64,000 nt of DNA, taken from the NCBI GenBank assembly GCA_003009755.1, contig PXUB01000017.1:1-64000 (forward strand), in the 5' to 3' direction. The translations under genes were made by a program, and so were the position numbers. Source of the DNA: Thermoplasmatales archaeon SW_10_69_26 (GTDB taxonomy: Archaea > Thermoplasmatota > SW-10-69-26). The notes under the pieces were generated by a model. It ran no database searches and was not told where the DNA came from. It was given only the letters and a program-made list of their open reading frames with translations. This document shows positions 4,111 through 56,770 of this stretch, in pieces (the stretch's first letter is position 1; every line of letters begins with the position of its first letter).

Positions 4111-4992
4111 GTGGACCGTCGTCTCGCGTTCGCGATCGGGCTCGCCATCGCCGCCCTGACGGTGGCCGGTTGCATCCAGGACCTCGAGCGACGACAGCTC
4201 GACACGGGCTGGCAGGCCGGGGTGTCGGTCGACGAGACCCCGGTGGCCGAGGTGGGCGGAGCCCCGGCGACGGTCGTCGTCGAGGGCGCCGTCGACGTGC
4301 CCGCGGACGTGGACATCACCCTGACAGGGTTCTCCGGCGAGCTCTCGCGCGAGAACGTCTCGATCCCGCTCGAAGCGATGCGGGTCAACGCGGACGAGGG
4401 CACGCGCAAGGTCGCCGACGCCGAAGGCGAGCTGTCCATCGAGGCCGGCGAGCAGCTGCGTGTCACATTCGTGCCCGGTGACGACGCCGACCGACGCGCC
4501 AACCCGACGCAGATCTGGAACGCCTCCCTCGAGGTCCAGTGGCGCTACAAGGCCGACGGAGAGTTCGACGCCGGCCGGCTGGAGGTCGAGCGCAACGTGA
4601 CGCCCGCCCCCGTCGGCGGCCTGGGCGTGGGGGTCGTCCAGCGCGCCGAGGGCGAGGTTCACGAGCTGGTGTTCGAGGCGATCGAGGTCGAGGACGTGCC
4701 GGCCAGCCTGAGCGTCGAGGTGCTGCAGGTCGGCGGCGGCAGCGTGGAGGCGATCGACACCGTGGACGCCGACGTCAACCGCTCGGACGGCACCGCCCGC
4801 CTGGGATTCGCCGAGCCGATCAGCGTGCCCGAGGGTTCCGGGTACCTCGTGTTCCGCCTCGACGGGCTCGCGGGGACGGCCAGCGCCGACCTGCGCGAGG
4901 CCGAGGACCCGATCCCCGCCACCGGGGCCGCCGTCGGCGTGGCCCTGCTCGCGGCCACTGCCTGGGTGGCCGGCAGCTCCCGACGGATCTGA
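4111..4992 (+). CDS. secreted lipoprotein with C-terminal membrane helix
   Basis: A 293-residue protein starting at GTG. Residues 1-21 form a lipoprotein signal peptide with lipobox LTVAGC (Cys21). The mature part is mostly beta-type and acidic, with several Asn-X-Ser/Thr sequons, and resembles an extracellular Ig-like fold. Near the C terminus, IPATGAAVGVALLAATAWVA is a membrane helix preceded by a Pro/Gly-type motif and followed by SSRRI. This is the arrangement of archaeosortase-processed C-terminal signals. Having both a lipobox and such a tail is odd, since one anchor is usually enough. No function is recognised. The gene stands alone, with a hairpin 29 bp after its stop. Confidence 0.7.
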   Translation: MDRRLAFAIGLAIAALTVAGCIQDLERRQLDTGWQAGVSVDETPVAEVGGAPATVVVEGAVDVPADVDITLTGFSGELSRENVSIPLEAMRVNADEGTRKVADAEGELSIEAGEQLRVTFVPGDDADRRANPTQIWNASLEVQWRYKADGEFDAGRLEVERNVTPAPVGGLGVGVVQRAEGEVHELVFEAIEVEDVPASLSVEVLQVGGGSVEAIDTVDADVNRSDGTARLGFAEPISVPEGSGYLVFRLDGLAGTASADLREAEDPIPATGAAVGVALLAATAWVAGSSRRI

Positions 4993-5020
4993 TCGGGCCC
5001 CCGTCCGCCAGCCGTCCCAA

Positions 5021-5047
5021 CCCCTAGGCTTTTGTAGGACCTAGGGG
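5021..5047. terminator. hairpin after lipoprotein gene
   Basis: A perfect 8-bp inverted repeat, CCCCTAGG at 5021-5028 and CCTAGGGG at 5040-5047, with an 11-nt loop containing TTTT. It lies 29 bp after the stop at 4992 and between two convergent genes, so a terminator is likely. It is not proven. Confidence 0.4.
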
Positions 5048-5215
5048 CCGCTGCCTCGTAGAGGATGATTGCTGCGGGGAGACCCGCGCAGCTGCTTCTC
5101 GCCCGAGGCTCGCATCGCAGCCCAGGCTGTCGCGCGACGAGCGATCGCAATGGGCCACGCAAGCGACAGCCGCCGCTGAGGACGCTGTCGCGATGACGAC
5201 CGGCCTCGGCGCGGC

Positions 5216-6616
5216 CTAATTCTCCTCGCGCTCGGTCATCGCGCGGACGTCGAGGGCTTCGTCGACCTCGTCCTCGTCCATCAGCCCCTCCTCGACGACG
5301 ACCTGGCGCACGGTCTTGCCCTCCCGGAAGGCCTGCTTGGCGACCTTGGAGGCCTTCTCGTACCCGATGTAGGGGTTGAGCGCGGTCACGATCGCCGTCG
5401 ACTGCTCCACGAAGGACTCGGCCTGCTCCTCGTTGGCCTCGATGCCGGCGACGCACTTCTCGTCGAAGATCCGGCTGACGTTGGCCAACAGCTCGATCGA
5501 CTCGAGCACGTTGCGGGCCATCAGCGGCATCATGGCGTTGAGGTCGAGCTGACCCCACTGGTTCCCCTGCGTGACGACCTGGTGGTTGCCGGCGACCTGG
5601 GCGCCGACCTGGACGACGCTCTCCGGGATCACCGGGTTGACCTTGCCGGGCATGATCGAGGAACCGGGCTGGACGGCCGGCAGATCGATCTCGCCGAGCC
5701 CGCAGCGGGGCCCCGAGCCCAGCAGGCGGATGTCGTTGGCGATCTTCATCAGGCTGGAGGCCAGCGCGTTGAGCGCGCCGGAGACGTGCGTGATCGCGTC
5801 CTTTTGCCCCTGCGCCTCGAAGTGGTTGGCGGCTTCGTAGACGTCGGTCCCGGCGATGTCGGACAGCTCCTCGGTGACGAGCTCGCCGAAGCCCTGGGGC
5901 GCGTTGAGGCCGGTGCCGACGGCGGTGCCGCCGATGGCGACCTCGCGCAGCTCGTCGATCGCCTGCACGACCCGGTCGCGACCGTTGGCGACGCTGGCGG
6001 CGTAGCCGCCGAACTCCAGGCCCAGGCGGGTCGGCGTGGCGTCCTGGAGGTGGGTGCGAGCGACCTTGACGACGTCGTCGAACTCCTCGGCCTTGGCCTC
6101 GAGCGTCTGGTGCAGCCCGTCGAGGGCCGGGACGAGGTCCTCCTCGACGGCGAGGATCGTGGCCAGGTGCAGCGCCGTCGGGATCGTGTCGTTGCTGGAC
6201 TGGCCGTGGTTGACGTGGTCGTTCGGGTGGACCTGCTTGGACCCGACCTCGGCCCCGAGGATCTGCGTGGCTCGGTTGGCGAGGACCTCGTTCGTGTTCA
6301 TGTTCGTCGAGGTCCCGGAGCCGGTCTGGAACACGTCGACGGGGAACTCGTCGTCGTGCTCGCCCTCGGCGACCTCCTCGGCCGCCTGTGCGATCGCCTC
6401 GGCTTTCTTGGCGTCGACCGTCTCGAGCTCGCGGTTCACGCGAGCGCAGGCGAGCTTCACCATGCCCATCGCGCGGACGAACCGCGCCGGCAGCGGGTCG
6501 CCGCTGACGGGGAAGTTGTCCACGGCTCGCTGGGTCTGGGCGCCGTACAGGGCGTCCGCGGGCACGCGGACCTCGCCCATCGTGTCCTCCTCGATCCGGA
6601 CGTCGTCGTCGGTCAT
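5216..6616 (-). CDS. fumC: class II fumarate hydratase
   Basis: A 466-residue cytoplasmic enzyme that interconverts fumarate and L-malate in the TCA cycle. The length matches the class II family. Visible motifs: TGSGTSTNMNTNEV near residue 100, HPNDHVNHGQSSNDTIPTAL (substrate site), and the superfamily signature GSSIMPGKVNPV near residue 320 on the mobile loop that carries the catalytic serine. It is the oxygen-stable, cluster-free type, common in bacteria, whereas many archaea use the iron-sulfur class I type. Aspartase is related, but this sequence looks like fumarase. It is a single gene, convergent with the lipoprotein gene, and a dispersed repeat lies just upstream of its start. ATG start; stop is TAG. 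Confidence 0.95.
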   Translation of the reverse strand: MTDDDVRIEEDTMGEVRVPADALYGAQTQRAVDNFPVSGDPLPARFVRAMGMVKLACARVNRELETVDAKKAEAIAQAAEEVAEGEHDDEFPVDVFQTGSGTSTNMNTNEVLANRATQILGAEVGSKQVHPNDHVNHGQSSNDTIPTALHLATILAVEEDLVPALDGLHQTLEAKAEEFDDVVKVARTHLQDATPTRLGLEFGGYAASVANGRDRVVQAIDELREVAIGGTAVGTGLNAPQGFGELVTEELSDIAGTDVYEAANHFEAQGQKDAITHVSGALNALASSLMKIANDIRLLGSGPRCGLGEIDLPAVQPGSSIMPGKVNPVIPESVVQVGAQVAGNHQVVTQGNQWGQLDLNAMMPLMARNVLESIELLANVSRIFDEKCVAGIEANEEQAESFVEQSTAIVTALNPYIGYEKASKVAKQAFREGKTVRQVVVEEGLMDEDEVDEALDVRAMTEREEN

Positions 6617-9364: not shown

Positions 9365-9571
9365 GGCTTCCACGGCGTCGGGCCGGTGCACGTCCCAGAC
9401 CAAGCCGACCTTCTCGAGGGCGTCGATGACCCACTTGCCGGGGTCGACCTGCCACCAGTCGTGGCCGAGGTAGGCCGAGGTGGGGAAGGCGTGGTGGTTG
9501 TTGTGCCAGCCCTCGCCGAAGCCGAGCAGGGCCACGATCGGGTTGTTGCGGGCTTCGTCCTCGGTGTCGTA
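9362..9571 (-). pseudogene. C-terminal fragment of fatty-acid desaturase
   Basis: Seventy codons ending in TAG encode YDTEDEARNNPIVALLGFG, EGWHNNHHAFPTS and a tail GLVWDVHRPDAVEA. This is the last quarter of the desaturase at 22444-23358 (HDTEDEARNNPIVALLGFG, EGWHNNHHAYPTS, GLVWNVHRP). The DNA is nearly identical over 9489-9570. Only the third histidine box (HNNHH) is present; the first two and the membrane helices are missing. Upstream of 9571 the similarity stops at the promoter region of the next gene. It is a dead fragment from a duplicated or once tandem desaturase gene. Confidence 0.85.
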
Positions 9572-9604
9572 GGGGGGTGCCCCCGTCGTCTCGGCTGGGA
9601 GGCG

Positions 9605-9640: not shown

Positions 9641-10378
9641 ATGCCCGCACGCCTGGACGAGGTCGACAAGCGGATCCTCTACCACCTCGTTAAGGACGCC
9701 CGCAACACCAGCGCGCCCCAGATCGCCGAGGAGGTCAACGTGAGCTCGGCCACGATCCGGAACCGGATCGACCAGCTCGAGGATGAGGGCATCCTCGAAG
9801 GCTACCATGCCCGGATCGACTACGAGCGCGTGGAGGGCCGGTTGACCAACCTCTTCGTGTGCACCGTTCCCGTCGCCGAGCGCGAGCGCCTGGCCCAGCA
9901 GGTGCTCGACGTGCCCGGCGTCGTCCACGTCCGTGAGCTGATGACCGGCCAAGGGAATCTCCATATCAAAGGGGTCGGGGAGGACATGGGTGACGTCAGC
10001 CGCATCGGGCGCAAGCTGACGAACCTCGGTGTGGAGATCCAGGACGAGCACCTGGTCCAGCGCGAGCACCAGCGCCCCTACCGGTCCTTCGGGCCGGGAA
10101 GGGAGGTGGATCGAAGCGGAATCGCGGACTTCGTGAGCCTGGCTGGGGGGGCCGAGGTCCTCGAGGTGGCGGTGAAGGACGGCGCTCGCCTTGCAGGCCG
10201 GACGCTCAAGGAGGCCAACGCTGAGGGGCTGCTGGATCCCAGCGTCCTCGTGATCGGGATCGAACGCGGTGACGAGACGCTCACCCCGCGAGGCGACACG
10301 CAGGTCCGCGGGGACGACTTGGTCACGATCTTCTCGAGGCGCGGCATCGACGACGACATGCTCGCTGCTTTCGGCTGA
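9641..10378 (+). CDS. Lrp/AsnC-type regulator fused to an RCK_C (TrkA-C) domain
   Basis: A 245-residue protein. Residues 1-60 form an AsnC-type helix-turn-helix (LDEVDKRILYHLVKDARN, then AEEVNVSSATIRNRIDQLED). Residues 65-145 form an Lrp-like ligand-binding region (FVCTVPVAERERLAQQVLDV, then a GVVHVRELMTG strand). Residues 160-245 match the TrkA C-terminal domain (LAGRTLKEANAEGLLDPSVL, then LTPRGDTQVRGDDLVTIFSR), which binds small ligands in potassium-channel regulators. A DNA-binding protein with such a domain next to trkH and trkA suggests control of potassium uptake genes. It converges with the universal stress protein gene, leaving 8 bp between them. ATG start with a palindrome at the promoter. 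Confidence 0.88.
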   Translation: MPARLDEVDKRILYHLVKDARNTSAPQIAEEVNVSSATIRNRIDQLEDEGILEGYHARIDYERVEGRLTNLFVCTVPVAERERLAQQVLDVPGVVHVRELMTGQGNLHIKGVGEDMGDVSRIGRKLTNLGVEIQDEHLVQREHQRPYRSFGPGREVDRSGIADFVSLAGGAEVLEVAVKDGARLAGRTLKEANAEGLLDPSVLVIGIERGDETLTPRGDTQVRGDDLVTIFSRRGIDDDMLAAFG

Positions 10379-10386
10379 GGATGGCG

Positions 10387-11289
10387 CTAACTGAGCTGCC
10401 CCTCGTGGACCACGAAGCTCCAACCTGGAGCCTTCCGCCGGACACGCCTCGAGGTCGATCCGTAAACCAAGCGCTTCAACCGGCCCGTCGTAGGCGCCCC
10501 GACGACGAGGCTTCCATCATCTCGCCCCTGCCGAAGGAGCGCCTCGGCGACGTCGTCCTCCTCGAAGACCTCCGCCCGAATATCGACGTCCGCGTCCTGT
10601 AACACTGCGACCTCCTCCCGAAGGCGGGACAGCTCCTCGTCCCATTCCCCGCCGCCGGCCTCCGAGTCGATGACGTGCACCATCGAGGCCCGCAGATCCC
10701 AAGCCTTCCCGAGGACCCCAGCGAACCAGTGAACCGCCTCTCGGTGGGGTCCCCCCGCCAGCCCCGCGGTGACCCCGGAGGGCCGCTCGGAGACCGGAGG
10801 CGGGCTGTAAACCACCGAACGGGACCCAAGGGACGCCATGATCTCCTCGGCGACATCCTCGGGGATCGCGCCACCTGGGCTGGTCGGTTGCTGGCCCGGC
10901 AGCAGGACGAGACGCGCGTCGTGCTCCGCGGCACCCTGGACGACGAGCGAGGACAAACTGTGGCCAAGCCGCACGACTCCGTCGATCTGCTGGGTCCGAC
11001 CCTCGGCCCGATCGACCACCGCCTCGACCGCCTCCCGATGAGGTCCAACGATCTGGGGGTCCGAGTCGTCGAGTGGCGTCCCGTCGGGGACGACCGCAGG
11101 ACGTAGCAGCAACAGCTCGATGTCCAGCGCCTCCGCTATATCTAGCCCCAGCCGCAGATCGACCTCGAAGGACCGCTGTTCCGGGAACACCTGCAGGATC
11201 GGCCCCGCCGCGGGATCCTCGCCGTGGGCCCGAGCGGCATCGAAGAGCCGTTCCCGCAACGGCTCCAGGTCGTTGGCCACCTCGTTCAT
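10387..11289 (-). CDS. tandem universal stress protein (UspA-like)
   Basis: A 300-residue protein made of two UspA-type alpha/beta domains. The second keeps the nucleotide-loop pattern best (LVVGAPTTGRLKRLVYGSTS, then RRVRRKAPGWSFVV), like the G-2x-G-9x-G(S/T) ATP-binding motif. The first half (ALDIELLLLRPAVVPDGTPL and EHDARLVLLPGQQ) lacks a clear ATP loop. Such proteins bind ATP or other ligands and act in stress responses, often next to ion transporters. Here it lies between the Lrp-RCK regulator and trkH. AGGTGA stands 5 nt before the ATG, a good ribosome binding site. ATAAT-like bases near 11327-11336 may be the promoter. Confidence 0.85.
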   Translation of the reverse strand: MNEVANDLEPLRERLFDAARAHGEDPAAGPILQVFPEQRSFEVDLRLGLDIAEALDIELLLLRPAVVPDGTPLDDSDPQIVGPHREAVEAVVDRAEGRTQQIDGVVRLGHSLSSLVVQGAAEHDARLVLLPGQQPTSPGGAIPEDVAEEIMASLGSRSVVYSPPPVSERPSGVTAGLAGGPHREAVHWFAGVLGKAWDLRASMVHVIDSEAGGGEWDEELSRLREEVAVLQDADVDIRAEVFEEDDVAEALLRQGRDDGSLVVGAPTTGRLKRLVYGSTSRRVRRKAPGWSFVVHEGQLS

Positions 11290-14370: not shown

Positions 14371-14472
14371 GCGTGTGGCAGCGGTCGCGCTGTGGGGCGG
14401 GTGTCCCCGGCTACCCGTCCGCCGCCTACAGCCTTCCTCCGACCCCGGCTATCCGCTATCAAAGGCGGTAAC

Positions 14473-14480
14473 GGTTAACC
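14473..14480 (+). promoter_or_regulatory. TATA-like element of clamp gene
   Basis: GGTTAACC centred 28 nt before the ATG at 14505, as expected for a leaderless archaeal transcript. Confidence 0.45.
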
Positions 14481-14504
14481 CCCGCGCTCGCTTCATGGTA
14501 CTCG

Positions 14505-15278
14505 ATGGCGCAGGTGGTGGTTGCGGACTCGAACGCGCTCCGAGCCCTACTGCACGCTTTCCCGGGCGGCGAGGAAGTGTTTCATCCTCTCCAGCTTCGA
14601 GCAGATGACCAGGGACTAACGATCGCTGCGACGCAGAAGGCCGGCTCCTTCATGGCGAAACTCGAAATTGATGGAAGCGGCCTGGAACGTCAGCCCGCGA
14701 CGACAGCGGAGATGAGTCTCCTCCCTGACCAGTTCAAGTCGGTTCTTCAACCAACAAAATCCCAGTCCTTCTCTCAGGGCGACATCCGCGCCACCTTCGA
14801 TCTAGACGGAAACCGGATGCGGGTGAAGCTGGAAAGTGATGAACATCCGAGGGTGATTCGCCGGACAATCACGGCCGCCTCAGGCGGAAAACTACATTTC
14901 GAGAACCTTCCAGGCTTCGATGACGCTGCCCAAGCCCCAGATTTGGACCCGGTCATCCTGAACGAAGCAAGTGATCTCTTCCTTGCCACCGATGATGTGG
15001 ATCGGGTCCACCTCGAGATCTCTGATGGAAGGTTGGAGTTCGAATCACGGCCCCGCCCAGAAGATGCCGAATGCTTCGAGGAGGGATTGACGACAGAGGG
15101 CGAAGGTTCGACCTTGATCCTGCCGAAGTTCCTGGATGACGCCTCCGCGATCGCGAAGAGGAACACGGGCGTCGGAATCGCGTCCAGCGAACTTCGCGTT
15201 ATCGAGCGAGGACCGGTCCGTTTCCGATATAATCTGACGTGCGGTTCAGCGACCTACTGGGTGGGGCCTTCTCTGTAG
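14505..15278 (+). CDS. divergent PCNA-like sliding clamp
   Basis: A 257-residue protein with the layout of archaeal PCNA (about 245-250 residues): two similar halves of beta strands and amphipathic helices. N-terminal half: residues 8-60 (DSNALRALLHAFPGGEEVFH, then LRADDQGLTIAATQ) resemble the PCNA opening, and EMSLLPDQFKSVLQPTKSQ fits the strand and helix that start its second module. Second half: LDPVILNEASDLFLATDDVD, then VHLEISDGRLEFESR, and a C terminus FRYNLTCGSATYWVGPSL like the PCNA ending (an EY/F strand, then YLAP). PCNA rings tether polymerases, nucleases and ligases to DNA. Overall conservation looks weak, so this is probably an extra or element-borne clamp and not the cell's main one. 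Visibly less GC-rich than trkA. It converges with the next gene, overlapping by 25 bp. An ATG at 14494 is out of frame. Confidence 0.65.
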   Translation: MAQVVVADSNALRALLHAFPGGEEVFHPLQLRADDQGLTIAATQKAGSFMAKLEIDGSGLERQPATTAEMSLLPDQFKSVLQPTKSQSFSQGDIRATFDLDGNRMRVKLESDEHPRVIRRTITAASGGKLHFENLPGFDDAAQAPDLDPVILNEASDLFLATDDVDRVHLEISDGRLEFESRPRPEDAECFEEGLTTEGEGSTLILPKFLDDASAIAKRNTGVGIASSELRVIERGPVRFRYNLTCGSATYWVGPSL

Positions 15279-16234
15279 CCGAGAGAGGCTTGGAACGTTT
15301 CGGGGATCTCGATCCCTTCCCCGTTTTCCCCGTGGAGTAGCTCGGGGAGAACCAGTTCGTTGATCCCATCGGGAGGGCCATCCCTGAGGGGGAGCTTATC
15401 CTCGATCCAGGAGATGGATTCGAGCTTCCCGAACCCCTCCACCCGTTCTGACTGGTGTAGATCAACGCCATCCGGCATGACCAGAACCAATGGGTCGAAC
15501 TGAGGGTTCACCACGTATGCCGATGCAAATACGCTCCGCCACTCGAAATACGAGGTCACATCTTCTTCAATCGTTCCAGAAACAGGATACTTTCTCCCGA
15601 AATAGGAGGTCCGGTCTATTTTGCTCGGATGGGGGAAGCAGAACCGAGGGTGACCTTTGGGGCCTCCGACGGTCAAGACCTCGCCATGCTCTTCGAGCTC
15701 GTTCACGTAGTTGAGAAGGCCGGAGTAGCTAATCCGGAAGGAGGCGTCCTTACGGAGTCGGTTGTGGAGCTTCTGGATGTATAGTCCGGGATTCTGCTCC
15801 ACGAACTCGGTGACCTTGGCCATGCGGGCTGTCTTCGTTTCCTGCGTCTGGGACGATATGTACTCTTCAAGGCCAGCCTCGACTTCGGCCCATTCGTCGT
15901 CTCGGGCTACACCTGGCTGGACCCGCTCTTGGAGCAAGCTACGGAGATCTCTGGAGGTCCGGTCGATGAGTTCGAATACCGCCTCGATGTCTCCCTCATC
16001 GATGTTTCGGCCCCGTTCAGTCTCGTTCTGAAGATGTTGAACGAGGCCTATCTCATCCTCTGGCCGCTCGGCTTCCTCAACGAACCGCAGGATGGGTTCC
16101 CAGCGCTCTGGTCCGACTCTCTGATCCTGGAAGGCATGTTTGGCGATAGAGAGGAGATGATGGCGGACGTTGGGAGCGTCCTCGGCGAGTTCGCTCGCCT
16201 TCAGGGGGGCGCGAAGATCATGCACTCTCTTCAC
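15254..16234 (-). CDS. unknown protein with central winged-helix-like region
   Basis: A 326-residue protein of unknown family, starting at GTG. The first 140 residues are helical and charged. Residues about 150-215 look like a winged helix: TARMAKVTEFVEQNPGLYIQ, then KLHNRLRKDASFRISYSGLL, then NYVNELEEHGEVLTVGG, with a basic end GPKGHPRFCFPHPSK. The C-terminal 110 residues are mixed (FEWRSVFASAYVVNPQFDPL and VLVMPDGVDLHQ). Its start lies inside the end of the metallopeptidase gene (17-bp overlap), so they form one transcript. It may be a DNA-binding partner or regulator in the island. It is convergent with the clamp-like gene. Function is not assigned. Confidence 0.7.
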   Translation of the reverse strand: MKRVHDLRAPLKASELAEDAPNVRHHLLSIAKHAFQDQRVGPERWEPILRFVEEAERPEDEIGLVQHLQNETERGRNIDEGDIEAVFELIDRTSRDLRSLLQERVQPGVARDDEWAEVEAGLEEYISSQTQETKTARMAKVTEFVEQNPGLYIQKLHNRLRKDASFRISYSGLLNYVNELEEHGEVLTVGGPKGHPRFCFPHPSKIDRTSYFGRKYPVSGTIEEDVTSYFEWRSVFASAYVVNPQFDPLVLVMPDGVDLHQSERVEGFGKLESISWIEDKLPLRDGPPDGINELVLPELLHGENGEGIEIPETFQASLGYREGPTQ

Positions 16235-17129
16235 CTAGTATGTCGGCGGCCAGCTGGATGCGCGGCGAATCCGTACTTTCTCCATCTAGTACCCTATAAA
16301 CAACTCGGTGGGGTATTTTAGCGTTGTTGAGAGACTGTTCGAGGCTTTGCCCATCCTCCTTGGCTTTTCGGTATTCTTCATTCTCTCCAGGGGGGAGAGC
16401 TTCTAAGAGAGGTTTCAGGAAGCCTTGCACGTCCTCTGCGAAGTCACCCGACCAGAGACTATGGGCAATCTCGTGTAGCAGGGTTCCTCGAAATGCAAAA
16501 GACGGGTGCTCGGGGAACTTACGCCGAGTCTCATAGCCTTCGTCCGCCTTGAACCGAACGAGGTCTCTCGGGAACGCCGGTCCTCCACAGGAGAGCCCGA
16601 AGAGATCGGCGAGGGCTTCTCCTCGCCGCCTCATCTCGGCCAAGAGGCTCCAGGACTTGTCATAGACAGCCGACTGGCCGTGGGCTACCTCGTGAAAGAG
16701 CAGGCCCGGATATCCGCCGGGCTCCATAGGGTAGTCTACGCTGTCTAGGATGACGAGAGTGATGCTTCCCTCCCCTCGTCGAGGGTAAACCACCGGGCTG
16801 GATCGGGTCCCCGGTACAATCAGGACCTCGATTCTATCCTCAGTGCAAACCTCCTCAGCGGCCTCGATGCAGAGCTCCACGATCCGCTCGTCCGTGTTTA
16901 CGTGGCCATCATCGAGCTGGGAGGCGACCCTTGTCAGGTCCGAGGCTTGCCGCTTGAGAACCTGGACCTTCCTCTCGGGCATCCAGGCCTCAGCGGTTTC
17001 AATCTCTTCGCTGAGGTTTTCGTGCCAGCGGAGCAGATTGTCCAACGAGTAGGATTCAATCCAGCCATGGCCTTCGGCCTTATCCAAGATCGACGGAACG
17101 CGATGGAACCGCTGGGCCGCCTCGTCCAT
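16218..17129 (-). CDS. zinc metallopeptidase (HExxH)
   Basis: A 303-residue cytoplasmic protein. FHEVAHGQ near residue 146 is a zinc-binding HExxH helix. GEALADLFGLSCGGPAF about 30 residues later gives the third ligand and the ExxxD-like motif, and HPSFAFRGTLLHEIAHSL follows. That third segment fits the HPPLxxR helix seen after the active site in some HExxH peptidases; its HEIAH is then a second, probably fortuitous, motif. Residues 1-90 are helical. There is no signal peptide, so it acts inside the cell. It is the first gene of a two-gene transcript with the winged-helix protein, a pairing reminiscent of peptidase-regulator modules (ImmA-ImmR is the known analogy, not a homology claim). A TATA-like CCTTACAAG lies at 17161-17169. 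Confidence 0.75.
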   Translation of the reverse strand: MDEAAQRFHRVPSILDKAEGHGWIESYSLDNLLRWHENLSEEIETAEAWMPERKVQVLKRQASDLTRVASQLDDGHVNTDERIVELCIEAAEEVCTEDRIEVLIVPGTRSSPVVYPRRGEGSITLVILDSVDYPMEPGGYPGLLFHEVAHGQSAVYDKSWSLLAEMRRRGEALADLFGLSCGGPAFPRDLVRFKADEGYETRRKFPEHPSFAFRGTLLHEIAHSLWSGDFAEDVQGFLKPLLEALPPGENEEYRKAKEDGQSLEQSLNNAKIPHRVVYRVLDGESTDSPRIQLAADILGEESA

Positions 17130-17456
17130 TTCCGTCGCCCCATAGGGTCAGGATCTCTCCCCTTACAAGTAGGTCGCTCTCTGCAGGGTGAAACTGGATC
17201 AGTCATGGCTCCGACGATCGTATCGGAGCAGGGCCTATGCTGGGTGAAGTAGACGAACAGGCCATGCCAGCCCGGGCGAAGCGAGGAGGCAGCCCAGGTC
17301 ACGATACGGAGTGATGAAGCAGAGGATAGACCGGTTACGGAAGCCGAGCGTTCAGTCCTTCCTCTCCTATCCGGCCGAGGCGCGTCAATGGGCACTGGTC
17401 GCAGGAGCCCGGGGGGACCGCTACGCGCATACCCCAGGACTCGGTCTACGGGTGGA
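17130..17456. other. intergenic region, divergent promoters
   Basis: About 330 bp between the metallopeptidase (minus) and the next plus-strand gene. It holds the TATA-like CCTTACAAG (17161-17169, minus strand). GGTGGA stands just before the ATG at 17457. No gene is supported. Confidence 0.4.
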
Positions 17457-17945
17457 ATGACTACCTTCGATCCCGAACAGATGAGCCGCCTCCGAGCCCG
17501 CCTCGAGGAGCTGCGCGCCTCGGACGAGATGCTGTGGACCGAGCGGGACTTCCAGCTGTTCTGCCGCTGGTTCAAGCGCCACAAGGAGGACATGATCGAC
17601 GGCAAGCTGAGACAGCTGAGGTTCATGGCGCGCCACGAGGATGCGCCGGTCGAGCTGCGGGAGACGAAGGACGAGGCTATCGACACGTTCCTGCGCTACG
17701 TCGTCCACCGCGAGCATGTCGAGGGCAAGACCCGCGCGGCGGTCGGTAACGACCACAAGGCGTTCCGCACGCTGGGCGATCTGGTCGGGATCGACCGCGA
17801 CAAGCTGCCCGTGGTCCCCACCGAACTGGGCGCTGGCCGGTCAAACCTCGCTCTGAACAAGATCAATCTCTTCCTCGGTAAGTCCGTAGAAGAGGTGCAC
17901 GATCTGATTGATCAGATCATCGGTCTTAGAGATCTGGATGTCTAG
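17457..17945 (+). CDS. unknown helical protein, C-terminus replaced by antisense of the RM gene
   Basis: A 162-residue protein of unknown family. ATG at 17457 is chosen because upstream residues are low-quality and GGTGGA precedes it. It is mostly helical and charged (MSRLRARLEELRASDEMLWT, FCRWFKRHKEDMIDGK, HREHVEGKTRAAVGNDHKAF). No membrane or signal segment. Its GC-rich codons match the chromosome, unlike the flanking island genes. The last 35 residues (after about 17841) are read from DNA that also encodes, on the other strand, the C terminus of the restriction enzyme. The natural 3' end was probably lost when that gene arrived. It may be nonfunctional. Confidence 0.55.
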   Translation: MTTFDPEQMSRLRARLEELRASDEMLWTERDFQLFCRWFKRHKEDMIDGKLRQLRFMARHEDAPVELRETKDEAIDTFLRYVVHREHVEGKTRAAVGNDHKAFRTLGDLVGIDRDKLPVVPTELGAGRSNLALNKINLFLGKSVEEVHDLIDQIIGLRDLDV

Positions 17946-20900
17946 ACTTTCGACCTTCTCCTGCACCCGGACATATCTGTCGAGGTCATCTCCTACTTGG
18001 TCCAGTAAGGGGAGCCGTAGCTCCTTTAGGCGATCCAACAGGGAGTTCGTCTTAGTAGCACTCTCCCGGAAATCGGCTATTCCGCCACCTTCCTTCACGA
18101 TGGCTGGGACGACCGCTTGAACGAGGGCGTTCTCCCGGTCGTCCAAGTCCCTCAGAGTGAAGGCTTCGAGATATTCCGTTTCGGTATATCCCCACTGGTC
18201 GGTCTCTTGTTCCTCCTCGTCCTCCGGCTTGTAGCGGGCCGCGATTCGAACCCGGAGGACACCGTTCTCCTCTTTGATTTGAACATCTCCCACTCGGAGC
18301 TTGTCGAACTCGTCCGCAGTCGCCTCAAGGATATCTGAATCGTGCGTGGGTTGGAAGAGGCCGATATCCGGGAGCTTCGGCCCCTCAAAGGGTGGAGCGA
18401 AGTAATCCAGGGGTTTGAGTTCATAGCCCTCGCGCTCTTGGCGTAGGTCAGAGATGTGATTGGCGAGGGTTGAGAGAAAGTCGTGGACAACGTCGTCCCT
18501 ATCTGCCTCGAGCTCTTCGCTAACCCGAGCTCTGATCTCCTCGCCGTCTTGGTCCTCTCGACCCTCTAGGTAGGTCTCGTAGAGGGAGCTCAGTTCATCC
18601 GCTGCTTTCTCTCGTTCCGGTTCTGGAGTGGAGAACTCGATTTCTCGGATCGGTAGATCCTGGAAGTATTGCTTTGTACAGGTGATGTACCCTCCGCGGA
18701 ACACGTTGCTGTTCGCCTGAAGGCAGCGGAACAGCAGGTCCGAATTGATGACCGAGAGGATATAGCGGGGGTCGTAATGGTTGGACTCCTCAGAGTCGAA
18801 GGCGATTCCGAATCCACCGCTGGCCATCAGTACGTATTCCGACTGTGGCTTGGGGTAATCGGCGAACGATGGACCGTCGGCGAGCAGAGGAATCAGGATT
18901 TCTGCGCTGTCGTGGATCCTGAGGTTCCGCGGCGCGCTGTAATCGTACCACACAGAGTAGTCTGCGCGTTCCTCGAGTTCATCCCGATTCCTCTCCAAGT
19001 AGCTCCACGTCTCCGGATACCGGGATGTAAATTCCTCCTCCTGCAGGAGTTCATAGTCCTCGTCGTATACCCAGATGAACCGCTTCGAGTCGTCCCCGTC
19101 GAACAGGTAGTTGTCGAAGTCGGTTGAATGAATTGGCTGTCTCAGAGCGTCTGCTTCGAGCTGGAAGCTCTCTTCTACGTCTGATGAGCAAGAGACGAGT
19201 CCCTCACTGGCCTTCTCGACGTGGACTTGGAACACATCATCGCAACCTGAGCTGGTCCCGCGCCCGATGGCTTCTGCGATCTCACTGAGGGGGATCGACT
19301 TCTCCCAGACGGACTCCAACAATGACTCGATCTCTTCGGACTGGAAGGTCCAGGTGGCTGCGGAGAGGGACTCGTTTTCCCATGTGGCCTTGCGCCAATC
19401 AGTCTCCTCATAGGGTAGTCGCTTGACAGTTGAGGGGTCTCCACCATCTGCAAGCTTCCAGTAGGTGAATGGCTTTTCCCGTTCGGAGCCCGACAACAGA
19501 AGGATCGCTGTGTAGGTCGTGGCGGAGTCTGCGAACACCTGGGTTGAGCCGAAGTCTAAGATGCCTGCAACCTGGGAGTTCTGCGCCAGCCTCTCTCGCA
19601 GTGGCTCGCCATAGTCAACACGGAAAATCTTGTTGGGAAGAATGAAGCCAAATCGTCCAGATCCCCGTAGGAGATCTGTGCCTTTCTCCACGAAGATGAC
19701 GTAGATATCGTAGTTTCCTGTTGGTGTCTTGTAGGTCGCCCTATAGTAGTCTCGCTGCTTCTCCGGGATTCGCTGGATCTCTGCGTACGGCGGGTTTCCG
19801 ATGATGGCATCGAACCCTGGATCCTCCTGGCGACTCCCATCCTGCTCGTAGAAGGCAATCGGGAATTCTAGTTGCCAGTGGAAGAAATTCTCCTCTGCCG
19901 CGAGATCTTGTGCTTCCTGGTACCAATCCTTTTCCTGAATGGCAGCCCATGATCCATCCAATAGGGCCTCAGCCATCTGTTGGTAAGCATCGGACGGGAC
20001 CTGGAGCCCATAGGCCTCTGCCGTGTGGACGTTCGCCATTGACCGGAGGTAAGTGTAGAGGTCGTCCTCCCGGACCTCTCGGTAGACGGCCTCCATTTCC
20101 TTGATGTCCTCTATGCTCTCATTCTCGATTGAGAGCAGTTCCTCGAACCGATCCGTGACGTGTTCAAGCGAGCGTTGTCGAGCCTGGCTGAAGGATTGGC
20201 GGAGAGTGAGTTGGCCTCTTGGCGTTGAACCGTTCTCCGTGAGGACTTCCTCAATGTCGCTTCCGATCAGGGAATTCCCGGCCTTTAATCGGTGATCGAG
20301 GAACGCCAGGGGTTGTTCGGCGGCAAGGGTTCGAAGCCAGAGCGAAACCTTTGCGAGTTCAACGGCTAGCGGATTGAGATCGACGCCGTAGATGCAGCGT
20401 TGGGCCACCTGGCGGCGGGCCCAGTAGATGTCATGGCCTTCCTCAACCGTCTCGACCCCTTCGGATCTCGCCTGGGCTTCTCGGGTTCGAATGATCTCGC
20501 GTGCGAGGTAGTCGATGGCATTGGTCAGGAAGTGGCCGCTTCCCATGGCGGGATCGAGGATTCTCAGTTCGAAGATTGAATTCGCGAAATCCTCGGCAAA
20601 GCCCTCGGTGGAGGTCGCAGACTGTAGGACCTGAGACCTCACGTCCTCAACGATGGGACCCAAGGTGTTTTCGATGATGTGTTCGACGATGTATTCGGGA
20701 GTGTAGTACGAGCCTGTGGCCCTGCGGTCCCCCGAGTCCGTTGTGAGATACACTTCGCCCTCGGGGATATCCGGAGTCCTCTGGCCAGGATCAATCGGCT
20801 TGTACTCGCCGTCTTCCACGGCGAGAGGCTCTTCGGCAAAGTTCAGTTTGTACTCCAACAGCCGTTCGTAGATGCTCCCAAGGTGGCGGATGTCGAGCGA

Positions 20901-22157
20901 GGTATAATCAACGAAGACCTTCTGTCCGCCTTCGCCATTCTCTCGCGTCGTCAAGAGTTCGATGACTCGTGCGAGATGAGCATCCCCGATCTTGTGCTCT
21001 ACGAGGAAACGGACCTCTCGACTATCAGCCGGAGATGGATCCGTCCGAAACAGGCCTCCGTTGTATGGGGGGATGTGCAGGTCTTCCTCGGGAATACCCC
21101 GAGCTTGGCTGCCTTGATCGATGAGGGTGAAGAGCCTCTGGAGTCGATGCCAGAGGGTGTCTTCCCATTCATAGTAGCCAGGATCTGGTTTTTGGAGGTC
21201 TTCCGATATTTCCTGCTTCAGTTGGTTGAGGCTGTATTTCTCTCGGTAGATGCGGTTGCGGGTGTCCAGCAGGTCTCGACCTTCACTCTCTGCGTAGAGA
21301 ACGAAGATAAGACGGTAGAGGTAGATGAGGGAGCTATCGTGAATCAGCTCGAGGTCGTCTCTGTCGAGATCGTTCTCAGGATAGGAGAGGAACCCGCGAG
21401 CGAGGAGCTTGATTGCTTCATAGACGTTTTCTTGTAGATCCTCGCCAAGTTCTCTGGCAAAGACTGTGCTCTTATGGTAGACTCGGTCCAGGAAGCTGTT
21501 GCCCGTGGAATCCTCTACGAATGCCGCCTTTCTGAAGAAGAGGTAGAAGTACTTGAACGCCTCAGGGTCTCCTGCTTCGAGAAGAGTTGGTAGATTAACC
21601 TCGTAGAACGAGTCCAGCCGGTGACTGGTCTTGTCGTGGTAGAGCCTCCATTTCCTGCCGTTTGTGAGTATGCCCCAACTCGCTGAGGTTTCTTGGAGAT
21701 AGACGTGTATTTGGTGACCCGGATTCTCGAAATCTCGGCGGTGTTCTCCTTCAGTGTCCAGGGGTCGTCCCCATCGTTTCGCGTCTCCGACGGCAATGGC
21801 ATTGCGGTAGAAGTCGCCGCCCTGATCTCGGCGTTCATGGGCGTCATCTAGTGCTTCTTGACTTTCGAAGAAGGCATAGTCCGGGCGGCGTCGACCTCGA
21901 TAGACGCTTTCTTCTATTTCGAAGGAGAAACCGAGCAAATCGAGAACCGGATTAACGAACCGTTTCCGGAGCTGCAGCTCATTGAAGTTCTCAAGTCGGT
22001 CTTCACTGTCTCTGTACTCTTGAAGTAAATCGTGGAATGCGTCTTCGACATCCTCCTCTGGGACAGCGGACCACGCGTCTGACTCTGGGAGAGTGTCATC
22101 GAGGAAGTGATTCGAGAACAGTTCGCTGTTCTTCCAAGCTGTAAGGGCAGTCTGCAT
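17841..22157 (-). CDS. type IIG restriction-modification enzyme (Eco57I-like)
   Basis: A 1438-residue enzyme that carries both methylase and nuclease. N-terminal part: RRPDYAFF, then AIAVGDAKRWGRPLD near residues 120-135, a PD-(D/E)xK nuclease core. Middle: GSYYTPEYIVEHII, then the SAM-binding motif ILDPAMGSGHF near 536, CIYGVDLNPLAVELAKVSLW, and the catalytic IIGNPPYAEIQ near 787, which marks N6-adenine methylation. C-terminal part: a target-recognition region and a family-typical ending LINQIVHLFYGLTEEEIDLV. ATG at 22157 is chosen; the upstream in-frame extension to 22301 would contain the probable TATA box. A GGAGG on the minus strand (22204-22208) stands 7 nt before an in-frame ATT, a possible rare start. 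GC is lower than in the neighbours, which points to transfer. It defends against foreign DNA. Confidence 0.92.
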   Translation of the reverse strand: MQTALTAWKNSELFSNHFLDDTLPESDAWSAVPEEDVEDAFHDLLQEYRDSEDRLENFNELQLRKRFVNPVLDLLGFSFEIEESVYRGRRRPDYAFFESQEALDDAHERRDQGGDFYRNAIAVGDAKRWGRPLDTEGEHRRDFENPGHQIHVYLQETSASWGILTNGRKWRLYHDKTSHRLDSFYEVNLPTLLEAGDPEAFKYFYLFFRKAAFVEDSTGNSFLDRVYHKSTVFARELGEDLQENVYEAIKLLARGFLSYPENDLDRDDLELIHDSSLIYLYRLIFVLYAESEGRDLLDTRNRIYREKYSLNQLKQEISEDLQKPDPGYYEWEDTLWHRLQRLFTLIDQGSQARGIPEEDLHIPPYNGGLFRTDPSPADSREVRFLVEHKIGDAHLARVIELLTTRENGEGGQKVFVDYTSLDIRHLGSIYERLLEYKLNFAEEPLAVEDGEYKPIDPGQRTPDIPEGEVYLTTDSGDRRATGSYYTPEYIVEHIIENTLGPIVEDVRSQVLQSATSTEGFAEDFANSIFELRILDPAMGSGHFLTNAIDYLAREIIRTREAQARSEGVETVEEGHDIYWARRQVAQRCIYGVDLNPLAVELAKVSLWLRTLAAEQPLAFLDHRLKAGNSLIGSDIEEVLTENGSTPRGQLTLRQSFSQARQRSLEHVTDRFEELLSIENESIEDIKEMEAVYREVREDDLYTYLRSMANVHTAEAYGLQVPSDAYQQMAEALLDGSWAAIQEKDWYQEAQDLAAEENFFHWQLEFPIAFYEQDGSRQEDPGFDAIIGNPPYAEIQRIPEKQRDYYRATYKTPTGNYDIYVIFVEKGTDLLRGSGRFGFILPNKIFRVDYGEPLRERLAQNSQVAGILDFGSTQVFADSATTYTAILLLSGSEREKPFTYWKLADGGDPSTVKRLPYEETDWRKATWENESLSAATWTFQSEEIESLLESVWEKSIPLSEIAEAIGRGTSSGCDDVFQVHVEKASEGLVSCSSDVEESFQLEADALRQPIHSTDFDNYLFDGDDSKRFIWVYDEDYELLQEEEFTSRYPETWSYLERNRDELEERADYSVWYDYSAPRNLRIHDSAEILIPLLADGPSFADYPKPQSEYVLMASGGFGIAFDSEESNHYDPRYILSVINSDLLFRCLQANSNVFRGGYITCTKQYFQDLPIREIEFSTPEPEREKAADELSSLYETYLEGREDQDGEEIRARVSEELEADRDDVVHDFLSTLANHISDLRQEREGYELKPLDYFAPPFEGPKLPDIGLFQPTHDSDILEATADEFDKLRVGDVQIKEENGVLRVRIAARYKPEDEEEQETDQWGYTETEYLEAFTLRDLDDRENALVQAVVPAIVKEGGGIADFRESATKTNSLLDRLKELRLPLLDQVGDDLDRYVRVQEKVESLDIQISKTDDLINQIVHLFYGLTEEEIDLVQSEV

Positions 22158-22263
22158 GTTGGGGGGACACCCTGTGTACCGAAGTCGCGCCCGAATGGAC
22201 AGCCCTCCTTCGGCACACTTCTGTTTTGTAGGGGGCCGACGGACTCGAAACGCCGCGCCCGGG

Positions 22264-22273
22264 ATGATATAGG
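22264..22273 (-). promoter_or_regulatory. TATA-like element of RM gene
   Basis: Read on the minus strand as CCTATATCAT, the clearest TATA box near the RM gene. It predicts a start of transcription near 22242 and an 85-nt leader to the ATG at 22157. It rules out the longer reading frame that begins at 22301. Confidence 0.5.
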
Positions 22274-22443
22274 TTCTGGTTCCTACCTGTGGAACCGCCA
22301 AGCGTGAAGCTCGTTCTTCGGGAACCGGGACGAGGCTCCTGGCGAGGATCTTCCCACGCTCGGATCCACGGCAACCGGTGAGGCAGAATAGAAGGATGCC
22401 GCGACACCGCAGCGAGGGGACGAGCCTTCGACGGTTGTCCAGT

Positions 22444-23358
22444 CTAAGAGGCTGCGGTCTCGGCTGCGTCCGCGGCGGCGGTCGCCTCAGGTTCCTCGTC
22501 CTCGTGGGGGCGGTGGACGTTCCAGACGAGCCCCATCTTCTCGAGGATGCGGATCAGGGCGCGGCCGGGGTCCAGCTGCCACCAGGCGTGGCCGATCTCG
22601 GCGGAGGTGGGGTAGGCGTGGTGGTTGTTGTGCCAGCCCTCGCCGAAGCCGAGCAGCGCCACGATCGGGTTGTTGCGGGCTTCGTCCTCGGTGTCGTGCG
22701 GGCGGCGCCCGAACATGTGGGAGAGGCTGTTGACGCTCCAGGTGATGTGGTGGCCGACGAACACGCGCACGAAGCCGCCCCAGACGACACCGAGCCAGGC
22801 ACCCATCAGGGTGCCCTTGACGGCGAACGCGATCAGGCCCGGGATGAGCAGACCGATGGTGGCCATCAGCGCGAAGCGGTCGTCGATCCAGCGGACGATC
22901 GGATCCCCGCGCAGCTCCTCGTAGATCGGGCCCGAGCGGACGAAGCGGTCGCGGAACAGCCAGCCGAGGTGGGCGTGCCAGAAGCCCTCCAACGGGCTGT
23001 GGGGGTCGCCCTCCTCGTCGGCGTGAGCGTGGTGGCGCTTGTGCGTGGCGGCCCAGTCGGCGGCGCCGCCTTGGACGGCCATCGACCCGAAGGCGAGCAG
23101 CGTCGCCTTCACGGCCGGGTGCGCCTCGAAGGCGCCGTGGGTGAGCAGGCGGTGGTAACCCACGCTGATGCTGAGGCCGATCAGGCTCCAGCCGCCGACG
23201 AGCAGGCCCAGCTCAAGCCAGCCGATCCCGTTCCCCCAAAGATAGACGATCGCGTAGACCGTGAGCGCCAGCGGGATGACGACGAACGCGAGAGTGAGCG
23301 CCTTGTGCCACCAAGGATCGTCGTGGAATGGGAGAGGGTCGTCGGACACGTGAGCCAC
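22444..23358 (-). CDS. acyl-CoA/fatty-acid desaturase (delta-9 type)
   Basis: A 304-residue integral membrane di-iron enzyme that introduces a cis double bond into an acyl chain. The three histidine boxes are complete: HRLLTH near residue 69, HKRHH near 107 and HNNHH near 246, with hydrophobic segments between them (VVIPLALTVYAIVYLWGNG, LELGLLVGGWSLIGLSISVG). The length is typical of prokaryotic acyl-CoA desaturases. It is unusual in an archaeon, whose membrane lipids have isoprenoid chains, so the substrate may be an isoprenoid or a free fatty acid. It is divergent from an HxlR regulator and has a truncated copy at 9362-9571. ATG start; the last 20 residues are Ala/Glu-rich. Confidence 0.92.
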   Translation of the reverse strand: MAHVSDDPLPFHDDPWWHKALTLAFVVIPLALTVYAIVYLWGNGIGWLELGLLVGGWSLIGLSISVGYHRLLTHGAFEAHPAVKATLLAFGSMAVQGGAADWAATHKRHHAHADEEGDPHSPLEGFWHAHLGWLFRDRFVRSGPIYEELRGDPIVRWIDDRFALMATIGLLIPGLIAFAVKGTLMGAWLGVVWGGFVRVFVGHHITWSVNSLSHMFGRRPHDTEDEARNNPIVALLGFGEGWHNNHHAYPTSAEIGHAWWQLDPGRALIRILEKMGLVWNVHRPHEDEEPEATAAADAAETAAS

Positions 23359-55558: not shown

Positions 55559-56770
55559 ATGCGGATCCTGCACACCGCCGACTGGCACCTCGGGCGTCGC
55601 CTGAACCGCGCCAGCCGCCTCGCCGAGCAGCGCGAGCTCTTGCACGATCTCGTCGAGCACACCGACCGCCTGGACCCGGACGCGGTGGTCGTGGCCGGCG
55701 ACGTGTACGACGTGTTCACGCCCGGCGCCGACGCCGAACGCCTGTACTACCGCACCGTGCAGCGCCTGGCCGACGACGGCACCCGCCCGGTCCTGGTCGT
55801 CGCCGGCAACCACGACAGCCCGGCCCGGCTCACGGCGCCGCGCGCCCTGCTCGAGGACCACGGCGTGTTCGTGTACGGCGACCCGCACGACCCCGACGAC
55901 GTCCCGCAGGCCCGCGACCACGAGGGCTTCACGATCCACGACGCCGGCCCCGGCTGGTTGGACGTCGAGACCGACGGCGGCCGCGGGACCTTCCACCTGC
56001 TCAGCTTCCCCTCCCGGTCCCGTCTGCCCTCCGACGTCGACGAGGAGGACGCCTCGGCGACCGAGATCGTCGACACCCTCGGCGATCGCGTCCCCACCGG
56101 CCCGGGCGCCCGCTACCTCGTCGGCCACCTCTACGTCGGCGAGGGCCACGACGTCGCGGAGGACACCGACGACTACGTCGGCGGCGCCTACGCCGTCCAT
56201 CCCGACGCCCTGGAGACCTACGACGCCGCCTTCCTCGGTCACCTGCACCGGCCCTTCGGCTCCGGCAACTGGCGCTACGCCGGCGCCCCGATGGCCTTCG
56301 ACTTCGACGACCCGGCCACGGAGCGCGGCGCCTGGCTGTACGAGGACGGGGTCGGCGAGACGGTGCCCTTGGCCGGCGACCGCGGACTGACCGAGCACCG
56401 CCTGGCCAGCTTCGATCAGGCGCTGGCGCTCGCCGAGGACGACGAGGACGGCTGGGTCCGGCTCGTCTTCGAACGCGGCACCGTGATCGAACGCAACCAG
56501 CGCAAGCGCCTGCGCGAGGCCTTCGGCGACCGGCTCGTCAACATCCGGTTCAGTGAACCCGACGACGACGCGCTCGCCACCTCGGCCACCGTCGAGCTCG
56601 GCGACCTCGATCCCGAGCAAGCCTTCCGCGACTACGTCGAGGACCGGGAGGGCAAAGGGCCCGACGACGAGCTCGTCGACATGTTCCTCGAGGTGCTCGA
56701 CGGGCCCCAGACGCCCGACGACGAGCCCGAGGCCGAGACGGGGCAAGCCACGCTGGAGGTCGACGGATGA
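55559..56770 (+). CDS. sbcD: SbcD/Mre11-type exonuclease
   Basis: A 403-residue nuclease. Phosphoesterase motifs in order: MRILHTADWHLGRRLNRASR, VVVAGDVYDVFTPGAD, VVAGNHDSP, LVGHLYVGEG and FLGHLHRPFGSG. It is closer to bacterial SbcD than to classical archaeal Mre11. It acts with SbcC to open DNA hairpins and process double-strand breaks. GGGGAGG lies upstream, and its stop overlaps the sbcC ATG (ATGA). Confidence 0.93.
   Translation: MRILHTADWHLGRRLNRASRLAEQRELLHDLVEHTDRLDPDAVVVAGDVYDVFTPGADAERLYYRTVQRLADDGTRPVLVVAGNHDSPARLTAPRALLEDHGVFVYGDPHDPDDVPQARDHEGFTIHDAGPGWLDVETDGGRGTFHLLSFPSRSRLPSDVDEEDASATEIVDTLGDRVPTGPGARYLVGHLYVGEGHDVAEDTDDYVGGAYAVHPDALETYDAAFLGHLHRPFGSGNWRYAGAPMAFDFDDPATERGAWLYEDGVGETVPLAGDRGLTEHRLASFDQALALAEDDEDGWVRLVFERGTVIERNQRKRLREAFGDRLVNIRFSEPDDDALATSATVELGDLDPEQAFRDYVEDREGKGPDDELVDMFLEVLDGPQTPDDEPEAETGQATLEVDG

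Follow-up and report, generated by a model that had tools for sequence, protein, structure and literature searches.

A distant PCNA-family protein encoded with winged-helix-like and putative metallopeptidase genes in an archaeal genomic island

Introduction

Does a 257-residue protein of Thermoplasmatales archaeon SW_10_69_26 belong to the sliding clamps, and if so, what might an additional clamp do? The gene lies in a 64,000-nucleotide stretch of DNA (the window) from a genome (G000) of 2.8 Mb that is 95% complete. An earlier note on this DNA had proposed that the protein is an extra, poorly conserved PCNA-like clamp, adjacent to a restriction enzyme and outside the context of replication genes.

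Additional PCNAs are not new in archaea. PMC3404096 and PMC3984812 describe T. kodakarensis PCNA2 (TK0582) and duplicates in haloarchaea, one of which, in Natrialba magadii, was traced to the virus PhiCh1. Duplicated and transferred clamps are also reported in PMC8357120.

An ortholog in another class of the phylum

An open reading frame of 257 aa sits exactly at 14505-15278 (+). With the window protein as a single query, we found matches at E ≤ 0.01 in 4 of the 97 relatives searched (counting its own genome). One of these is strong: a protein of 256 aa, with 24% identity along its full length, from Thermoplasmatales archaeon Yes46-08 (G025), which is from the same phylum and another class. 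Because this ortholog is present in another genome of the phylum, we consider the reading frame to be a real gene. Two other matches were dropped. (The weak match L005 is a 263-aa ORF that resembles a histidine kinase by eye, and L004 lies inside a protease-like ORF.) Our whole-genome searches covered 389 genomes of one phylum, and among the genomes searched, the clamp is known in just one other, G025. A search of genome contigs with the clamp returned only the G025 contig again.

Distant homology to PCNA

Neither ortholog matches Pfam's PCNA models (PF00705/PF02747), which agrees with the earlier impression of low conservation. The window protein alone also has no clamp match in Pfam, NCBIfam, PADLOC, or phmmer; among PHROGs, a DNA polymerase processivity factor is its closest match (E = 0.026). 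(It has weak matches to Pfam DUF3261, with E = 0.017, and to a colicin D immunity protein in the PDB, with E = 0.83; we took both as chance.) The G025 ortholog matches NCBIfam sliding-clamp models with E = 4e-4 and 5e-4, but its score of 19.7 bits is far below the curated cut-off of 239. When either ortholog was compared to the PCNA of the source genome (G000) by pairwise BLASTP, nothing better than E = 0.042 was found.

We also compared a profile of the two orthologs to eight canonical PCNAs with hhalign. The match covers positions 29-257 of the query, with a probability of 93, E = 3.5e-7, and a score of 53.5. If the columns were shuffled, the best of 200 scores was 23.5 (0 of 200 came near the real score), and control alignments of the two neighboring protein families described below (winged-helix-like and peptidase) scored 14.0-18.7. 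The eight PCNAs (alignment A8) were collected through Pfam hits. Seven are from the 11 genomes above the Pfam cut-off, leaving out G079 (with no ORF of at least 235 aa listed), G005, G009, and G022, and the eighth is the source genome's own PCNA. We had initially used PCNAs of genomes already matched by the query (alignment A7), a choice that favors a match (score 58.1; best of 100 shuffles, 27.2), so we repeated the test on A8.

A caveat is that the two-ortholog profile is thin, because there is only one ortholog. As single sequences, the two proteins do less well in hhalign, with probabilities of 42 for the window protein (E = 2.6e-4) and 5.9 for its ortholog from G025 (E = 0.0065). Both results count against the reading as an accessory clamp.

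At E ≤ 10, the ortholog profile matches six PDB sequences. Sliding clamps take the first five places (E = 0.023-0.084), and a calponin comes sixth (E = 0.78). The clamp profile matched 30 of the 389 genomes, namely the two with orthologs and 28 others. We read the ORFs at 11 of these 28 other loci, and all 11 are canonical PCNAs. Among the remaining 17 loci, at least three need not be PCNA (one is an 813-aa frame and two have internal stops). We also built a phylogenetic tree from 21 clamps. The window protein and its ortholog group together with support 0.999, on long branches, and lie outside the sampled canonical, viral, and proviral PCNAs, with the caveat that long-branch effects are possible.

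Overall, these comparisons give good support for placing the window protein, distantly, in the PCNA fold family. The earlier note had described a PCNA-like protein with two modules and had left it to a profile search whether any clamp would match. Clamps do match, and the description holds for a diverged member of the PCNA family. It does not extend to canonical PCNA, to which our sequence comparisons do not assign the protein.

Predicted structure and the pore

From the two orthologs alone, AlphaFold2 gave an unusable model (mean pLDDT 35), in which the order of strands and helices was still PCNA-like. Once ten PCNAs from viral contigs were included in the alignment, the mean pLDDT was 76.8 and the pTM was 0.78. 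The PDB chains nearest to this second model, according to Foldseek, are PCNAs (best E = 4.9e-14, TM 0.78), and VIA-align superimposes it on 1plq with Z = 23.7 and an rmsd of 2.2 over 234 residues. Because there were PCNAs in its alignment, this is partly circular, and the good model is support, not proof. The modeling partially supports a two-domain clamp fold.

We then examined the residues that would face DNA or partner proteins. Lysine or arginine is found in three of the four predicted pore-lining helices of the window protein and in all four of the G025 ortholog. The exception is the third of these helices in the window protein, which has neither residue and has two acidic ones. The C-terminal tail is YWVGPSL in the window protein and YTVAPMISE in G025, versus LAPRIE in canonical PCNA; LAPRI is kept in 10 of 10 viral PCNAs. 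In PCNA, the LAPRIE tail and the interdomain loop hold partner peptides. Both are altered here, which counts against an accessory clamp.

These features bear on an alternative explanation: that the protein has the clamp fold but no longer encircles DNA, and is instead a partner or an inhibitor of the neighboring winged-helix-like protein or of the host's PCNA. The strong divergence, the changed tail and loop, and the make-up of the third helix would all fit. However, both modules and most of the basic positions on the pore side are retained, and the ortholog keeps basic residues in every pore helix. We consider this explanation improbable.

If the protein is a clamp that binds partners, how might they dock? 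We found no strict PIP-box motif in the four partner proteins of the island, which counts against an accessory clamp, and any docking would have to rely on different contacts. Such contacts would be in agreement with the altered tail and loop, although this agreement does not show that docking occurs.

Other clamps in these genomes

The source genome encodes a canonical PCNA on another contig (G000:C1, E = 7.5e-114), so the earlier note was right to call the window clamp an extra one. There is also a second diverged PCNA (G000:C22, E = 5e-34), and with these two copies, the window protein is clearly not the only PCNA in the genome. The C22 copy is at L048:6052-6834 (+), or about 56051-56833 of G000:C22. 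Its block includes a ParB-like ORF (4158-6068) and a terminase-like ORF (9795-11249), both identified by eye, and is probably a provirus.

We did not find a canonical PCNA in G025 (87% complete) with either Pfam or A8. But two other genomes from the same order do have one, so, given the incomplete assembly, the absence may be a gap.

A three-gene cassette

The earlier note placed a restriction enzyme next to the clamp gene. The actual neighbors are two other genes, and the restriction gene is further off in the same island. The first neighbor, at 15254-16234 (-), encodes a winged-helix-like protein (326 aa, from an uncertain GTG start). It is convergent with the clamp gene, and their 3' ends overlap by 25 bases. 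The second, at 16218-17129 (-), encodes a 303-aa protein with the HExxH motif of a metallopeptidase. It overlaps the winged-helix-like gene by 17 bases, and the two are probably co-transcribed. G025 has the same trio in identical order and orientation, and the 3' ends of the clamp and winged-helix-like genes overlap there by 17 bases.

The winged-helix-like protein has relatives in G025, beside the clamp (27% identity, E = 9e-29), and in G079. It has a conserved block, Y..LE...(E/R)(I/V)..GGP.G. Its matches to winged-helix and HTH profiles are non-significant (repressor domains at E = 0.7-1.1). From the block and these matches, we infer a winged helix, and the protein is probably DNA-binding.

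The relative of the peptidase in G025 was found by tblastn (E = 8.6e-8). Several motif residues are identical in the two proteins (H146, E147, H150, E171, D175, H208, P209, and R214), in a pattern that we take to be gluzincin-like. The protein is a probable protease. It has no match in Pfam, NCBIfam, or the PDB. In having HExxH, E..(A/V)D further along the chain, and a neighbor that looks DNA-binding, it resembles the ImmA/IrrE-type and M48-type gluzincins that have HTH partners. This resemblance is of motif only, as no M48 or ImmA/IrrE profile from Pfam or NCBIfam matches, and, unlike in those systems, the third gene is a clamp.

The two partner families are very patchily distributed, which fits horizontal carriage. 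At E ≤ 0.001, the winged-helix profile matched 4 of the 389 genomes of the phylum, of which G252 is a marginal match (E = 1.2e-4, within a stop-containing frame of 1733 aa), and the peptidase profile matched 2 of the 389. The third genome, G079, has a distant relative of the winged-helix-like protein and no other member of the trio.

Directly after that relative in G079 is a 249-aa protein (P0006, L042:8867-9616 (-)), which has the length of a clamp and is in the clamp's possible place. Both by eye and by position it seemed PCNA-like, but hhalign gave probabilities of 0.1-0.4, and we rejected it as a clamp. That this protein has no detectable homology to PCNA counts against the accessory-clamp reading.

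An apparently acquired island

The clamp gene and its partners lie in a low-GC island at about 14470-22300 (these limits are approximate). In 2-kb windows, the GC content of the island is 0.55-0.61, and most values outside the island are 0.65-0.74. Similarly, the GC content at third codon positions (GC3) is 0.81-0.96 in seven flanking genes but 0.65-0.68 in the clamp gene and in the genes for the winged-helix-like protein, the peptidase, and the type IIG protein. Because of this foreign composition, the island appears to have been acquired horizontally. As possible traces of its ends, we saw only weak, chance-like direct repeats, and there is no tRNA within the window.

Besides the cassette, the island contains two neighbors that lie outside the demonstrated trio. 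At 17841-22157 (-) is a gene for a type IIG restriction-modification-like protein with a methylase core (about 1438 aa if read from the chosen ATG). It matches Eco57I from Pfam (E = 2.4e-40), and its best PADLOC model is DrmMI (E = 4e-106), followed by REase_MTase_IIG models. The other neighbor, at 17388-17945 (+), encodes a 185-aa protein without a family match. This gene and the type IIG gene overlap at their 3' ends, and the GC3 of the former (0.81) is intermediate.

Is the trio a defense system? If so, a clamp loaded on DNA might let it detect DNA that is foreign or damaged, and proteolysis would be the response. The type IIG gene in the same island, the patchy distribution of the winged-helix-like and peptidase families, and the foreign composition would all be expected for defense genes. 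But in PADLOC-DB 2.0.0, the clamp, the winged-helix-like protein, and the peptidase each have 0 matching families at E ≤ 10, and the trio has no nuclease. Also, there is no restriction gene near the G025 clamp among the listed ORFs of its 15.4-kb contig, and a functional link between the clamp and the restriction enzyme is not supported. The earlier note's ideas that the clamp might recruit a nuclease or disturb phage replication are conjectural. We think it distinctly unlikely that the trio is a defense cassette.

The surroundings of the G025 clamp point to another alternative. There, an Orc1/Cdc6-family gene (L006:10081-11235 (-)) is divergent from the clamp gene, with about 120 bases in between, and an integrase gene lies 3 kb beyond it on the same contig. 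(The Orc1/Cdc6 protein matches TIGR02928 with E = 2.5e-52 and 177.9 bits, just below the cut-off of 181.3.) In the window, the clamp gene is not beside replication genes, as the earlier note had said; for the family as a whole, this fails, because the G025 Orc1/Cdc6 gene adjoins the clamp.

The clamp could be a replication or maintenance factor of a mobile replicon, namely the processivity factor of a plasmid-like or virus-like element, with the window containing a remnant of such an element. PCNAs are common in archaeal viruses and proviruses: our PCNA profile matched 11 loci in viral contigs, and this genome has its own provirus-like copy. A published case is the haloarchaeal PCNA of PhiCh1, as described in PMC3404096. 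On the other hand, the stretch from 14.4 to 22.3 kb contains no Orc1/Cdc6, polymerase, integrase, or virion gene, and tblastn with the Orc1 and integrase of G025 gave no match anywhere in the window. Furthermore, no relatives of the clamp or the winged-helix-like protein were found in the viral contigs, phages, and plasmids that we searched. Such a replicon role for the clamp seems to us rather less than probable, though it has a real chance of being correct.

Proposed role of the cassette

The explanation that we tentatively prefer, at somewhat short of even confidence, is that the protein is an accessory clamp with the PCNA fold, spread by horizontal transfer, which sits on DNA and offers its cassette partners a platform there. 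The analysis shows PCNA-family homology that spans both domains, and the source genome encodes a canonical PCNA elsewhere. The trio recurs with its arrangement intact in another class, and the island has a foreign composition. The mechanism would be as follows. The clamp, which is far from canonical PCNA, would have been acquired within the metallopeptidase/winged-helix/clamp cassette. It most likely forms a PCNA-type ring, which the host's clamp loader could place on DNA. Once loaded, the ring might be a moving platform for the cassette's own winged-helix-like protein, and not for the host's replisome. The peptidase might then control the amount or the activity of a DNA-bound partner, with proteolysis as the control step.

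The mobile trio could also be a clamp-guided protease switch, for defense or for control of mobile elements, which we consider unlikely. The clamp would carry the winged-helix-like protein along DNA, and the peptidase would target either that protein itself or whatever the clamp encounters; we give these details equally little weight.

Comparison with known clamps

In its two-module fold, its length, its match over residues 29-257, and its pore-side helices, the window protein is like canonical archaeal PCNA (PRK01115/TIGR00590). Unlike canonical PCNA, it has no Pfam or NCBIfam match and has lost the LAPRIE tail, it is just 19% identical to its own genome's canonical PCNA (in a MAFFT alignment), and its gene is not beside replication genes.

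The extra PCNAs described in PMC3404096 and PMC3984812 are similar in that a second, non-canonical clamp, probably horizontally acquired, exists beside the canonical one. But those were found by Pfam or by annotation, and the window clamp is far beyond that range; it also travels with winged-helix-like and peptidase genes, unlike them. The virus-encoded PCNAs (the 11 viral-contig loci and the C22 copy) are likewise accessory clamps on mobile DNA, but they retain LAPRIE at the C-terminus and do not join the clade of the window and G025 proteins. Among open-licence papers, we found no report that joins a clamp with a defense island, or a clamp with a winged helix and a metalloprotease.

So, the known extra archaeal clamps are recognizable PCNAs, while standard models fail to detect the window clamp, and its two companion genes match no known family. 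If the trio works together, then a sliding clamp would be used outside of ordinary replication, and annotation pipelines would be missing part of the clamp family.

Finally, we noticed a repeated sequence on either side of the potassium-transport genes. A 72-aa stretch at 9380-9595 (-) is 74% identical to the C-terminal part of a desaturase-like protein at 22444-23358 (-), and is a truncated copy of it on the opposite side of those genes.
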